Shown: positions 7,297-41,086 of the stretch, piece after piece
How the letters are laid out: each line of letters begins with the position of its first letter
Position numbering within the stretch: the first letter of the stretch is position 1
Source: Thermoleophilaceae bacterium
GTDB taxonomy: Bacteria > Actinomycetota > Thermoleophilia > Solirubrobacterales > Thermoleophilaceae
Length of the DNA: 46,769 nt
Assembly (NCBI GenBank): GCA_040901445.1
Contig: JBBDYQ010000006.1
Span: 1-46,769 of the forward strand
Direction of reading: 5' to 3'
Made by a program: the position numbers and the translations under genes
Notes under the pieces: model-generated
Told to the model about the DNA's origin: nothing
Seen by the model: the letters and a program-made list of their open reading frames with translations, nothing else
Database searches by the model: none

Positions 7297-7340
7297 GGGG
7301 TCAGGTCTGACCCCTACGCAATGCAAGACCTGACCCCCTA
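7297..7340. repeat. Family A palindromic repeat (copy A1)
   Basis: Left arm TAGGGGGTCAGGTC and right arm GACCTGACCCCCTA are perfect 14-bp complements ending at 7340. The left half also folds on itself (GGGGTCA-GGTC-TGACCCC). The outer edge supplies the TAG stop of the rhodanese gene on the minus strand (7340-7338). It sits between the codirectional rhodanese and decarboxylase genes. Confidence 0.85.
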
Positions 7341-8764: not shown

Positions 8765-9534
8765 GGCGCGCTGCGCTCATCGGCGCGCTCGCCGCGGCGC
8801 TGCTCGCCTCGGCCGCCCCGCCGGCTGCCGCGGACAGCTGGCGCGAGCGCGTGGCCTCCGCGCGCGACTTCGCGGAAGACCGCCGCGGCCGCGTGGCGTT
8901 CGCGTTCGTGGACGAGCGCGGCCGGCTGCGCGGCGGGCTGGACACGCGCGAGCGCTTCCACTCGGCCAGCCTGGTGAAGGCCATGCTGCTCGTGGCCTAC
9001 CTGGACCGCGGCTCGGTACGCGGCCGGGCGCTGTCGGAGGGGGAGGAGGAACTGCTCGGCGAGATGACCCGCCGCTCGGGCAACCGCGCCGCCACGCGCG
9101 TGCGCAGCGTGGTGACCAACGCCGGGCTGCGCCGTGTCGCGCGCCGCGCCCGCATGCGCGACTTCGCCACGGCGGGCAGCTGGGGCAGCTCGATCGTCAC
9201 CGCGGCGGACCAGGCGCGCTTCTTCTTCCGCGTGGACCGCCTGGCGCCGCGCCGCCACCGCGTGTTCGCCCGCGCGCAGCTGGCGGGGATCGCCCGCTCC
9301 CAGCGCTGGGGCGTCGGGCAGGCGGTGCCCGACGGCTGGACCGCCTACTTCAAGGGCGCCTGGCGGCCGGAGGGCGACGCGCGGCTCGTGCACCAGGGCG
9401 CCCTGCTGCGCCGGCGCGGCACCCGCGTGGCGCTGGCCGTGCTCACCGACGGCCAGCCGTGGCACGGCTACGGCACGCTCACCGTGCGCGGCATCGCCCG
9501 CCGGCTGCTGCGTGACGGCCCGCCGGAGCCATGA
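8761..9534 (+). CDS. Secreted class A beta-lactamase-like serine hydrolase
   Basis: A protein of 257 residues with a signal peptide (ALIGALAAALLASAAPPAAA). FHSASLVKAMLL contains the SxxK active-site motif of penicillin-recognising enzymes. TRRSGNRAATR is in the place of the second-motif region, and RSQRWGVGQAVPDGWTAYFKG leads to a KG-type third motif. The class A Glu166 motif is not obvious, so a penicillin-binding or lipoprotein-like hydrolase role is as likely as beta-lactamase. The GTG start overlaps the cupredoxin stop (GTGA), giving a three-gene secreted unit. The stop codon overlaps palindrome C1. Confidence 0.75.
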   Translation: MRRAALIGALAAALLASAAPPAAADSWRERVASARDFAEDRRGRVAFAFVDERGRLRGGLDTRERFHSASLVKAMLLVAYLDRGSVRGRALSEGEEELLGEMTRRSGNRAATRVRSVVTNAGLRRVARRARMRDFATAGSWGSSIVTAADQARFFFRVDRLAPRRHRVFARAQLAGIARSQRWGVGQAVPDGWTAYFKGAWRPEGDARLVHQGALLRRRGTRVALAVLTDGQPWHGYGTLTVRGIARRLLRDGPPEP

Positions 9535-9577
9535 ACGTCCCGCGCGCCCCCGTCCAACGGGGGTGCGCGGGACGTTC
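9533..9577. repeat. Family C palindrome (copy C1), terminator-like
   Basis: Arms 9533-9552 (GAACGTCCCGCGCGCCCCCG) and 9558-9577 pair over 20 bp with one G/T difference, around the loop TCCAA. It begins at the stop codon of the serine hydrolase and ends 5 nt before the stop of the convergent dipeptidase, so it may act as a bidirectional terminator. There is no T-tract. Confidence 0.8.
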
Positions 9578-9582
9578 GTGCG

Positions 9583-10263: not shown

Positions 10264-10310
10264 CGAACGTCCCGGACTACCCCCCTGGACGGGGGGTTCC
10301 GGGACGTTCG
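10264..10310. repeat. Family C palindrome (copy C2)
   Basis: Arms 10264-10285 and 10291-10310 pair (CGAACGTCCCGG with CCGGGACGTTCG, then C6 with G6) with a 2-nt bulge, around the loop TGGAC. It is the reverse-orientation relative of copy C1: both read CCCCCGTCCA on one strand. It lies between the divergent dipeptidase and arsR promoters. Confidence 0.8.
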
Positions 10311-16725: not shown

Positions 16726-17154
16726 TTGGATGACGTTGACCGCAAGATCATTGCGCTGATGAGAGAGGATGCGCGGCGTTCGTTCCAGGACATCGGCGAG
16801 CGCGTCTCGCTGTCCGCGCCGGCGGTCAAGCGGCGCGTGGACCGCCTGGAGGAGCGCGGCGTGATCAAGGGCTACACCGCGACCGTCGACCCCGAGGTGC
16901 TCGGCTTCCACACGCATGCGTTCGTGTCCATGTACTGCGAGGGCCGGATGGCCGCGGGCGAGATCCGAGCGGCCGTGCGCGACCACCCCGAGGTCGTGGG
17001 CGCCTACACCGTGGCCGGCGAGTCCAGTGCCATCCTCCACGTGGTGGCGGCCGACACCCAGCACCTCGAGGAGTCGCTCGAACGGCTGCGCGACACTCCG
17101 GGGATCCTGCGCACCCAGACGCAGGTCGTGCTCTCCACCCTGCTCGAGCGATGA
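16726..17154 (+). CDS. Lrp/AsnC-family regulator
   Basis: A protein of 142 residues. The N-terminal helix-turn-helix is DDVDRKIIALMREDARRSFQ, then IGERVSLSAPAVKRRVDRLEERG. The C-terminal RAM/ligand domain ends in LRTQTQVVLSTLLER. TTG 16726 is taken as the start because it gives the canonical DxxDxxIL Lrp N-terminus; no ATG or GTG is in frame nearby. Position implies control of divergent hpd-hmgA, perhaps with an aromatic amino or keto acid as ligand. The gene also leads the ATP-grasp/ferritin-like operon (ATGA overlap), so it likely controls both directions. Confidence 0.85.
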   Translation: MDDVDRKIIALMREDARRSFQDIGERVSLSAPAVKRRVDRLEERGVIKGYTATVDPEVLGFHTHAFVSMYCEGRMAAGEIRAAVRDHPEVVGAYTVAGESSAILHVVAADTQHLEESLERLRDTPGILRTQTQVVLSTLLER

Positions 17155-18500
17155 TCGACGGCGTCGCGGACCTCAAGCTCCAGCATCTGGTCGAGCTGTC
17201 CAAGCTGGGCGACGGCGCCTGCGATCTCGAGCGCGAGATCGAGGGCTGGCTGGCCGAGCACGACGTGGTCTTCGACGGCCACACGATCCCGTTCGTGCTC
17301 ATGCCGCACTTCATCTCGGGCGCCCAGCTGAAGGAGGTGCGCCGCGCGGTGGGCTGCCTGTCGGCCGTGCTCGACCGCCTCTGCGACGCCTATCCCGAGG
17401 ACGCCCGCCTGCGCGAGGAGCTGGCCGTGCCCGAGCGCGAGGACGAGCTCATCCGCATGGACGCTGGCTACCCGCGCCCGCTGCGCATCTGCCGGCTCGA
17501 CGCGTTCCTGTCGGGCGGCGACGTGAAGTTCCTCGAGTTCAACGCCGACTCGCCCGCCGGCATCGGCTACACCGACATCCTGTTCGACGGATTGGCGCGG
17601 GCCATCGACCTGCCGCGCGTGCGCGGCGAGTTCGAGACCTCCTACACGCCGATGCTGCCGGTGCTCATCGCCACGCTGCTCGACGCCTACAAGCACTTCC
17701 GCGGCGGCACGGACCTTCCGGAGCGGCCGCGGCTGGCTCTGGTGGACGTGGCCGGCTCGCCCAGCGTGCCGGAGTTCCGCATCATCTGCGCCGCCGCCGG
17801 CGACGCCGGTGTCGAGGCCCTGCACTGCACGCTCGACGACCTCTCCTACGACGGGTCGGTGCTGCGTGCCGGCGGCGAGCCGGTGCAGCTCGTGTACCGC
17901 CGCGCCCTGCTCGAGGACGTGGGGGACGGCCCGCTGCTGGACGCCGCCCGCGACCGCCGCGCCTGCCTGGTCAACCCGTTCCGCGCGCGGGTGGCCAACA
18001 ACAAGAAGCTCTTCGCCCTGCTCGAGGATCCCCGTTATGCCGATCGCGACGAGCTGGAGGTCATCCGCCGCACGATCCCCTGGACGCGCGTGCTGCGGGA
18101 CGGCCGCGCCACCTGGGGCGACTGGGTGGTGGACCTGCTCGCCTTTGCCTCCGACAACCGCGAGCGGCTGGTGCTCAAGCCGGCGTCCGACTACGGCGGG
18201 CACGGCGTGGCGCTGGGTGTGGAGACCGGGCAGGGCGAGTGGGACGCTCTCATCGAGGAGCACGCGCCGCGCGCGGACTTCGTGGTGCAGGAGTACGTCC
18301 CGGTCCCGCAGGAGATGTTCCCGACAGTCGAGGACGGTCACATCCAGATGCAGCTCAAGCACTTCAACATCAACCCGTTCGGGATCGGAGGCCGCTACGC
18401 CGGCATGATCACCCGCATCTCCGACCGCGCGGTGATCAACGTGTCGGCGGGCGGCGGCCTGCTGCCGAGCGTGCTGGGAAAGGGGCGCAGCCATGCTTAG
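17151..18500 (+). CDS. Circularly permuted ATP-grasp ligase-like protein
   Basis: A protein of 449 residues. Motifs match the glutathionylspermidine-synthase-like/circularly permuted ATP-grasp group: VKFLEFNADSPAGIGYTD, the nucleotide-binding lysine strand RLVLKPASDYGGHGVALG, FVVQEYVPVPQEMFP, and the metal-binding end LKHFNINPFGIGGRYAG. Such enzymes join a carboxylate to an amine or thiol through an acyl-phosphate. No amidase domain is fused and the substrate is unknown. It sits between the Lrp regulator (4-nt overlap) and a ferritin-like protein (8-nt overlap), next to tyrosine catabolism genes. A small-molecule or peptide ligation pathway using an aromatic compound is a possibility only. 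Confidence 0.8.
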   Translation: MIDGVADLKLQHLVELSKLGDGACDLEREIEGWLAEHDVVFDGHTIPFVLMPHFISGAQLKEVRRAVGCLSAVLDRLCDAYPEDARLREELAVPEREDELIRMDAGYPRPLRICRLDAFLSGGDVKFLEFNADSPAGIGYTDILFDGLARAIDLPRVRGEFETSYTPMLPVLIATLLDAYKHFRGGTDLPERPRLALVDVAGSPSVPEFRIICAAAGDAGVEALHCTLDDLSYDGSVLRAGGEPVQLVYRRALLEDVGDGPLLDAARDRRACLVNPFRARVANNKKLFALLEDPRYADRDELEVIRRTIPWTRVLRDGRATWGDWVVDLLAFASDNRERLVLKPASDYGGHGVALGVETGQGEWDALIEEHAPRADFVVQEYVPVPQEMFPTVEDGHIQMQLKHFNINPFGIGGRYAGMITRISDRAVINVSAGGGLLPSVLGKGRSHA

Positions 18501-19668
18501 GCGCGGCTACGACGTCGACGAGAACGCCATCCGCTTCTCGAACTACTTCCATGTGCTGCGCGAGCTCGTCCACCTGTCGTCCGGCTGGCTGGCGCTGGAG
18601 CCGTCGTTCGAGCGCAAGTATGCGCTGGGCGACCATCTCCACGACGACGCGCGCGCGGTCACGAAGGTCAAGCGGCGGCTGTACGAGCTGCGCCACCCGA
18701 GCGACTACCCGGGCGCGCCGGGTCCCGAGCTCGCGCAGCTGCTCGACGAGCTCGCGGCGGCGGACTCGCCGGAGGCCTACCGCGAGCTGGCCTACGGCGT
18801 GGTCAAGCCCACACTGGCCGCCGCGATGCGCGTGCACCTGGCCGAGCTCGACCCGGTGACTGACGAGCCGTCGCTGCGCCTGCTCGAGCAGGTGGCCGCG
18901 CGGCAGGAGCGCCACAGCCAACAGCGGGGTCAGGTCTTGCATTCACACACCGGAGGTGTCGGAATGCAAGACCTGACCCTGGATCTGGGCGCGCTCCCGA
19001 TCAAGCTCCGCGGCGAGCCGCGGCCGCTGCGCATCCTGCCGCCGCTCCACGACCCCGCTCGCGACGAGTTCGTGGAGGTGAACGAGCACGGCGACCCGTA
19101 CCTCACCGACGACCTGTACGTGAACGGCGACGAGAACCACGTGCCCACCGACCCCGACGAGCAGCGCCACTTCTTCCACGGGCTGATGGACGCGGAGCTG
19201 TGCGCGGCCGAGCTGATGGCGCGCAACTCGCACGAGCATCCGGAGATGCCGTGGGACTTCCACGTGGACATGGCCCGCCAGACCTGGGACGAGCTGCGCC
19301 ACGCGCGCGTGCACGAGATCCTCATGCGAACCGAGCTGGGCTGCCGCTGGGGCGACTACCCGGTGGGCTTCTCCTACTTCCGCTCCATCTACGCCCATGA
19401 CCTGCTTGGCCGGCTGGTGCTCTTCAACGGAACCAGCGAGCAGAAGGCCATGTGGCGCCACTCGCACCGCCGCAAGGTGCTGGTGGAGCTGGGGCAGGAG
19501 AGCGTGGCGAAGGTCTTCGACTACCTGCTGGCGGACGAGGTGCCGCACGTGCACAACGGCGTGCGCTGGGGCACCCACCTGCTCGGCGGCGACGAGAGCG
19601 CCTACCGAGAGAAGGTGCGCGAGCTGCGCCAGGGGCTCGACCACACGGGCGCGCCGGCCTCCGCCTAA
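18493..19668 (+). CDS. Ferritin-like di-iron protein with in-frame palindromic insert
   Basis: A protein of 391 residues. The C-terminal half has a ferritin-like metal set: ELCAAELMARNSHEH, then TWDELRHARVHEI (E..H), then YLLADEVPHVHNG (DExxH), which resembles DUF455-like proteins. The N-terminal 145 residues are helical (HVLRELVHLSSGWLALEP, GDHLHDDARAVTKVKRRL). Between the halves lies palindrome A2, read as RGQVLHSHTGGVGMQDLT; its length of 54 nt (18 codons) preserves the frame. The ATG at 18964 inside the repeat could also start the C-terminal domain separately. It likely acts with the upstream ATP-grasp protein, for example as an oxidase or oxygenase, but no reaction is known. Confidence 0.75.
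   Translation: MLRRGYDVDENAIRFSNYFHVLRELVHLSSGWLALEPSFERKYALGDHLHDDARAVTKVKRRLYELRHPSDYPGAPGPELAQLLDELAAADSPEAYRELAYGVVKPTLAAAMRVHLAELDPVTDEPSLRLLEQVAARQERHSQQRGQVLHSHTGGVGMQDLTLDLGALPIKLRGEPRPLRILPPLHDPARDEFVEVNEHGDPYLTDDLYVNGDENHVPTDPDEQRHFFHGLMDAELCAAELMARNSHEHPEMPWDFHVDMARQTWDELRHARVHEILMRTELGCRWGDYPVGFSYFRSIYAHDLLGRLVLFNGTSEQKAMWRHSHRRKVLVELGQESVAKVFDYLLADEVPHVHNGVRWGTHLLGGDESAYREKVRELRQGLDHTGAPASA
18926..18980. repeat. Family A palindromic repeat inside a coding sequence (copy A2)
   Basis: Left arm GGGGTCAGGTCTTGCATTC (18926-18944) and right arm GAATGCAAGACCTGACCCT (18962-18980) are complementary except for the last base. An inner ACACC/GGTGT stem extends the hairpin. It is open in the reading frame of the ferritin-like gene. 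Confidence 0.9.
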
Positions 19669-38263: not shown

Positions 38264-38302
38264 GTCCTGCTCTGGGTACCCATACGGTGCCCAAAGCAGC
38301 AC
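38264..38302. repeat. Family B palindromic repeat, intergenic (copy B3)
   Basis: Left arm GTCCTGCTCTGGGTAC (38264-38279) and right arm GTGCCCAAAGCAGCAC (38287-38302) pair with few mismatches. On the minus strand it reads ATGGGTACCCAGAGCAGGAC, keeping the ATG seen in the other copies; here the ORF closes after about 18 codons. It lies between korB and the convergent GNAT gene. Confidence 0.75.
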
Positions 38303-38315
38303 GGTGGCTCGATTC

Positions 38316-39625: not shown

Positions 39626-41086
39626 TTGGCCAGGGGCCGCGTGCCGCGGGCCGCCGCGGCCGTCGCCGGCCTGGCGGTCGCAGCATGGGTGTCCACCCGC
39701 TGGGTCTCCCTGTCCCCGGACGCCCGCTACTCGCTCGCCTGGGGCGCCGAGCTCATCCGCGGCGACGCCCCGCAGGTGGACGCGCCGGAGGTGTCCACGC
39801 CGCACCCGCTCCCGATAGTGGCCGGCGGGCTGGTGTCGCTGCTCGGCGCGCGGGCGGCCGCCGACGTGTACGCCTTCGGTGCGGTGCTCGCGTTCGCCCT
39901 GCTCGTGTACGCCGGCTTCCGGCTCGGCCGGGCGCTCGGGGGCACGGTGGCGGGCGTGGTGGCGGCCGCACTTGTGGCCACCCGCGAGCGCGTCGACTTC
40001 TTCGCCTCGCGCGCGTTCATCGACATCCCGTTCGCCGCGCTGGTGCTGCTGGCGGCGGCGCTGGCGGCGGAGGGCCCCCGCCGCAACGCCACACCCGCGC
40101 TGGGGCTGCTCGCGCTCGCCGGCCTGCTGCGCCCGGAGGCGTGGGGGCTCGCCGCGCTGTACGGCGGCTGGGTGATCGTCGACCAGGCCCGCCCCAGCCG
40201 GGGTCAGGTCTTGCAGAACGGCAGAACTCGGGCCGAAGGCCCCTGCTGGTCTGCAAGACCTGACCCCGGCCCCTGCGGCATTGCAAGACCTGACCCCGGC
40301 CCGGCACCTGCGGCCACGCTCGCCCTCGTTGCCGCCGCGCCCGCCATCTGGATCCTCTTCGACCTCGCGCTCACAGGCGACCCCTTCCACTCCCTCCACG
40401 GCACCCAGGAGAACGCGCTGCTGCTCGAGCGCGACACCGGCCTCGACGACCTGGGGCCCAGCCTGCGCGCGGGAATCGAGGACCTCGCCGGCCTGGCGCC
40501 CGCCGCGGCGGGCGCGGCGTTCGGGGCCTGGGGGCTGGTGCGCTTCCGGCGCGAGCGCCCGGCGTTCGCGGTCGTCATGGGGCTGGTGGGTGCGGGGATC
40601 GCCGCCTTCGCCCTGCTGGCCGTGGCGGACCTGCCGCTCAACGACCGCTACCTCGTGGTGCCCGCGCTGGCGCTGCTCGCGCTCGCCGCGGCCGCGGTGC
40701 CACGGGCCACGCGCAGCGTCGTGGCGGCGGCCGCCGCCACGCTGGCGCTCGTGCCGGCCGCGCTGGCGCTGCCTGACGACCTCGACGCGGCGGGCGACGG
40801 GCTCGAGGGCGCACACTCCAAGGCGCGCGCGGACGAGGACCTCGAGCGGCTGCTCTCGCGCGACGGCGTCCGCGCCGCGATCGATCGCTGCCAGAGCCTG
40901 TCGGCCGCGGCGTCCGGGCGTCCGGCGGTGGCGGCCCTGCTGGGGCGCGACCCCGCCACGGTGGCCATCTCGCTCAGCCCGGTGCCGCCGCCGGGCAGCG
41001 CCACCCTGAGCACGAGCGAGACCGTGCCGCCCGGCACCCCGCGGAGCGTGCGCGTGCGTGCCTGGACCTTCGTCAACCGCTGTTGA
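39626..41086 (+). CDS. Polytopic membrane protein, GT39-like, with in-frame palindromic insert
   Basis: A protein of 486 residues. There are about ten hydrophobic helices. The first extracytoplasmic loop (SPDARYSLAWGAELIRGDAP, then VSTPHPLPIV) resembles the catalytic-loop end of mannosyltransferase-like (GT39/GT83/ArnT) proteins, though the diagnostic DE pair is not clear. The C-terminal part is soluble. Between helices, residues near 190-225 are encoded by palindrome A3 and read RGQVLQNGRTRAEG... and ARPDP twice, interrupting an otherwise hydrophobic region. The start is uncertain: TTG 39626, or GTG 39641. It probably transfers a lipid-linked sugar at the membrane, but this is a family-level guess. 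Confidence 0.65.
   Translation: MARGRVPRAAAAVAGLAVAAWVSTRWVSLSPDARYSLAWGAELIRGDAPQVDAPEVSTPHPLPIVAGGLVSLLGARAAADVYAFGAVLAFALLVYAGFRLGRALGGTVAGVVAAALVATRERVDFFASRAFIDIPFAALVLLAAALAAEGPRRNATPALGLLALAGLLRPEAWGLAALYGGWVIVDQARPSRGQVLQNGRTRAEGPCWSARPDPGPCGIARPDPGPAPAATLALVAAAPAIWILFDLALTGDPFHSLHGTQENALLLERDTGLDDLGPSLRAGIEDLAGLAPAAAGAAFGAWGLVRFRRERPAFAVVMGLVGAGIAAFALLAVADLPLNDRYLVVPALALLALAAAAVPRATRSVVAAAAATLALVPAALALPDDLDAAGDGLEGAHSKARADEDLERLLSRDGVRAAIDRCQSLSAAASGRPAVAALLGRDPATVAISLSPVPPPGSATLSTSETVPPGTPRSVRVRAWTFVNRC
40197..40300. repeat. Family A palindromic repeat inside a coding sequence (copy A3 plus half copy)
   Basis: The complete part has 20-bp arms at 40197-40216 and 40251-40270 (GGGGTCAGGTCTTGCAG and its complement plus GCC/GGC edges). 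A further right half (GCATTGCAAGACCTGACCCC) is at 40278-40297. All of it is open in the frame of the membrane-protein gene. Confidence 0.9.

Follow-up and report, generated by a model that had tools for sequence, protein, structure and literature searches.

An in-frame palindromic element in the linker of a DUF455 protein gene from a Thermoleophilaceae bacterium

How does a hairpin-forming repeat come to be read as part of a protein, and does the protein merely tolerate it or was the added peptide selected? These questions are raised by a 46,769-nt stretch of Thermoleophilaceae DNA (the window), which is one entire contig of a 3.54-Mb genome. A preliminary description placed a palindrome in frame at 18926-18980 and gave its peptide, and both were correct on re-reading of the sequence. 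We consider it very probable that this palindrome is a non-autonomous element of the TIRYT type, which was spread via a transposase and entered the linker of a DUF455 protein in frame, where it would most likely be translated and neutral.

The element, its host gene and the linker

The features on which the analysis centres are the following:
17151-18500, plus strand: ATP-grasp-like gene with a glutathionylspermidine synthase preATP-grasp match, upstream of the host gene
18493-19668, plus strand: host gene, an open reading frame of 391 amino acids with a Pfam match to DUF455 (PF04305) at residues 220-380
18926-18980, no strand assigned: palindromic element, apparently two inverted transposon ends, with arms at 18927-18944 and 18962-18979 and codons at 18925-18978

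Fifty-four nucleotides, or 18 codons, are read through in the host frame and encode the peptide RGQVLHSHTGGVGMQDLT. The element runs from GGGGTCAGGTCTTGCATTC to GAATGCAAGACCTGACCCT, and its RNA folds into one hairpin (-46 kcal/mol, z -9.4) that was matched by none of 200 shuffles. It had been described as a 55-nt hairpin with perfect arms; the hairpin stands, but perfection is confined to the 18-bp arms, G18926 and T18980 being mismatched, and a 2x2 mismatch lies between these arms and a short inner stem. In this copy the right arm differs from the GGGGTCAG end in its outermost base.

The end of the upstream ATP-grasp-like gene overlaps the start of the host gene by 8 nt. In the host protein the Pfam match covers the C-terminal half only, and the N-terminal half is conserved and without a Pfam match. 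A coding signal in one and the same frame was obtained for both flanks of the element, and each of five orthologues from the order (74-77% identity) is one continuous open reading frame; the alternative that the preliminary description had named, two genes with an intergenic palindrome, does not fit these results. In the orthologues, a hypervariable linker of 14-18 residues separates a conserved histidine (RH or HH) from a (D)LG motif. As had been predicted, the insert is absent from all five; the accompanying prediction, that the flanks would join exactly, held for none of them. For such an empty-site comparison the genus comprises one genome, and the available genomes include no close relative with the site empty. 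The linker of the present protein consists of S-Q-Q, 18 element residues and L, i.e. four native residues, and the protein is 4-8 amino acids longer than its orthologues at this point, not 18. With four native and 18 element-coded residues, insertion at the target was therefore not clean. From the alignment, about ten native linker residues appear to have been lost, and either the ancestral linker would have been unusually short or native codons would have been lost. The predicted structure of the host protein is poor (mean pLDDT 48.5), with residues 145-193 mostly coil in the model, and does not allow a firm placement of the insert; a PDB profile search found no relative.

Copies of the element and their link to transposases

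The palindrome had been assigned to a REP-like repeat family, and the counts agree with this. The arm was found six times in the window at up to three mismatches, against 0.02 expected, and the genome-wide search and in-frame count that the preliminary description had proposed gave 13 exact full elements, or 17 including slight variants, three of them in frame in genes: the target, a copy in a membrane protein gene (40200-40297) and a copy in a gene for a GT4-like glycosyltransferase (C1:146495). The remaining full copies are extragenic or occupy stretches with a weak coding signal. Across the 17 copies the outer 15 arm pairs are nearly invariant, while the inner pairs vary together and stay paired; GGGGTCAG starts both arms in most copies, and the loop sequence differs among them. 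Besides the target, two copies in the window deserve a line each:
40200-40297, plus strand: second in-frame copy, a full element with an extra half-arm, in the membrane protein gene (frame 39629-41083)
7297-7337, minus strand: degenerate copy of the family with a stop codon adjoining the arm, found by the arm search of the window

When the 33 codons of the 40200-40297 copy are removed, ...RPS meets GPAP..., which compares with RRS-GPAP in an orthologue (L278), and the DNA GGCCCGGCACCT is identical to that of L278 on one side. By this comparison the flanks join exactly and the element did insert cleanly here, in a loop of the membrane protein.

The palindrome pattern was seen in none of the order's other 231 genomes, and a search of viral contigs gave no match. 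Among the matches listed, it occurs in Rokubacteria, Elusimicrobia, Nitrospirae, Proteobacteria, actinobacteria and others, and 25 of the 27 palindrome-carrying genomes of other phyla among these matches have Y1_Tnp genes, a frequency for which the sole control is an unmatched set of well-known genomes (5 of 14). Inverted single arms lie on both sides of a Y1 gene at L205, L206 and L209, among others, and diverged ones do so at L199 and L203. The tested transposases are Y1_Tnp proteins, mostly with a C-terminal HTH: matches to HTH_23, HTH_38 or HTH_28 are at or above the cut-off in L205, L203 and L210 and weaker in L206, and the L211 transposase has weak matches to other HTH families only. The NCBIfam match is to the REP-associated tyrosine transposase, with one of three proteins over the cut-off. 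Because the arm flanks Y1/HTH transposase genes, and because its GGGGTCAG end agrees with the published TIR motif GGGGWSAS, we read the hairpin as two transposon ends back to back; judged by their sequences, the flanked transposases are of the TIRYT type, TnpAREP subclass 2.1. At L206 (49-1089), the Y1 transposase frame is open upstream across two tandem arms, with GGQVLQNHIY repeated.

No Y1_Tnp transposase was found in the present genome, so that we infer mobility here. One half-arm (L003, C5:47547) lies near a contig end at 47687 and might border a missing copy of the transposon, which makes an assembly gap a possible reason for the absence of the transposase. A transposase in the same genome was not treated as defining, since REPtrons have been reported to be lost in some species. 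In the mechanism that we propose, the element is built from both terminal inverted repeats of a transposon of the TIRYT type (Y1/HUH with a C-terminal HTH), free of the transposase, and would have spread as single-stranded DNA by the action of a transposase that has since been lost from the genome or was supplied earlier in trans. One copy would have landed in the fast-evolving linker that joins the N- and C-terminal halves of the DUF455 protein, with the native linker partly lost or overwritten, and would have survived because its length preserved the frame, that frame holds no stop and the linker accepts varied peptides.

TIRYT elements, or TIRtrons, combine palindromic TIR dimers with a Y1 transposase and GGGGWSAS ends (Di Nocera et al., 2013, PMC3733652); the element shares the GGGGWSAS end, the inverted copies around a Y1 transposase (in other genomes) and the genomic dimer repeats, but the present genome is without the transposase. 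Intragenic GTAG/CGTC REPs are read in frame in many species, dimers among them coding for 20-30 amino acids, and it has been suggested that linkers or loops tolerate them (PMC3733652); in-frame REPs have been described within tnpAREP genes (PMC6006769). The short palindrome and the in-frame reading are common to both, whereas the arms studied here start with GGGGTCAG and carry neither the GTAG nor the CGTC tag at their foot. Since in-frame REP insertions in linkers are already published, the target is another case of a known phenomenon. A REPIN is an inverted pair of transposase-linked repeats, each of them also a hairpin by itself, that forms one hairpin and is mostly extragenic (Bertels and Rainey, 2011, PMC3116915); the inverted pair, the RAYT link, the single hairpin and the mostly extragenic location were all found for our element, but a single arm, by inspection only, appears to have no hairpin of its own, and the transposase subclass differs. 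Rickettsia palindromic elements (RPE), the best-known case, are in-frame insertions of about 150 bp into unrelated protein genes (PMC10969869). The parallel with them drawn in the preliminary description holds only as an analogy, in that both are in-frame palindromes in unrelated genes; RPE are rickettsial and about 150 bp long, and the present arm is a Y1 transposon's terminal inverted repeat. The 16-nt arm sequence was not printed anywhere in the literature searched. The element connects a widespread family of hairpins, which none of the papers searched describes, with a class of transposases that has been little studied as to its ends and movement.

Tolerance, selection and other readings

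In other genomes, 24 of 113 testable copies have an open frame of 60 codons to either side of them, against 83 at random positions, so that copies either steer clear of genes or are removed from them. As the element lies in a variable linker, tolerance is the simplest reading, and the host protein probably does no more than tolerate it; varied reading frames and the avoidance of genes likewise fit tolerance and not peptide selection. That the peptide was selected for a function added to the protein seems to us very improbable, even though the frame is kept and two further full copies also lie within genes of this genome: the host proteins are unrelated, the sites are variable loops, the element is read in differing frames in different hosts (GQVL.., GVRS..), the majority of copies are extragenic, and a single genome is concerned. 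The preliminary description had supposed that such inserts are tolerated, or even selected, in this lineage. Its first half agrees with the variable linker, no sign of selection was seen, and a special tolerance of this lineage does not agree with a family that the rest of the order lacks and distant phyla carry.

The element also carries a possible start site:
18952-18966, plus strand: candidate internal start, GGAGGT (18952-18957) with an in-frame ATG 6 nt downstream (18964-18966)

The insert might thereby split expression and give rise to a separate, putative C-terminal DUF455 protein, since the whole of the Pfam match lies downstream of the ATG. The start site is, however, buried in the hairpin, its loop sequence is unconserved among copies, and all orthologues have one continuous frame, with the upstream half of the present gene still open and coding; we hold this reading to be improbable. 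We give hardly any credence to the view that the element is an immobile transcription or RNA signal, such as a terminator or regulatory hairpin, that lies in the gene by chance. The hairpin is strong and most copies are intergenic, but no terminator-like site was found in the region, nearly identical arms are present in distant phyla and surround transposase genes, and the family is missing from the rest of the order. Read as a tolerated insert of transposon origin, the palindrome offers a clear case of a mobile hairpin turned into part of a protein linker.

Solo arms and other repeats

Two exact 16-nt solo arms lie in conserved genes, namely hemL and a methyltransferase gene, with gene length unaltered. 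In hemL (L013, C1:180860, minus strand), the arm peptide AGSGLATQ is native or near-native in relatives and PDB relatives align at the arm ungapped; the codons GGG TCA GGT CTT GCA are rare synonymous ones, and the probability of the arm codons given the peptide is 2.5e-7. In the class I methyltransferase gene (L048, C25:556957), where about 27 nt match the full element, the arm reads RGQVLQSDI and the length equals that of most relatives. In the coding DNA of the genome 0.0008 such arms were expected and two were observed (Poisson estimate about 3e-7); matches with one mismatch are at chance level. One-mismatch arms in an oxidoreductase-like (L051) and a ligase-like gene (L052) were rejected as remnants, as their codons are common ones and such matches would be expected from chance alone. 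Among 843 kb from other genomes, the solo arms included no clear in-place case.

It is conceivable, although we think it unlikely, that an arm can be written over host codons in place, the length remaining unchanged, when a single strand anneals to a partial match and is copied in. The traces of such copying would be the hemL and methyltransferase arms and possibly the shortened linker of the target; the two solo arms may also stem from an assembly fault. If real, in-place copying would constitute a new route by which a tiny mobile element alters genes without insertion.

Another family of palindromic repeats, whose arms are GAACGTCCCG, is present in the window at 9533-9578 and 10265-10310, as are two related imperfect palindromes of the GTCCTG...CAGGAC type at 973-1012 and 38264-38303.
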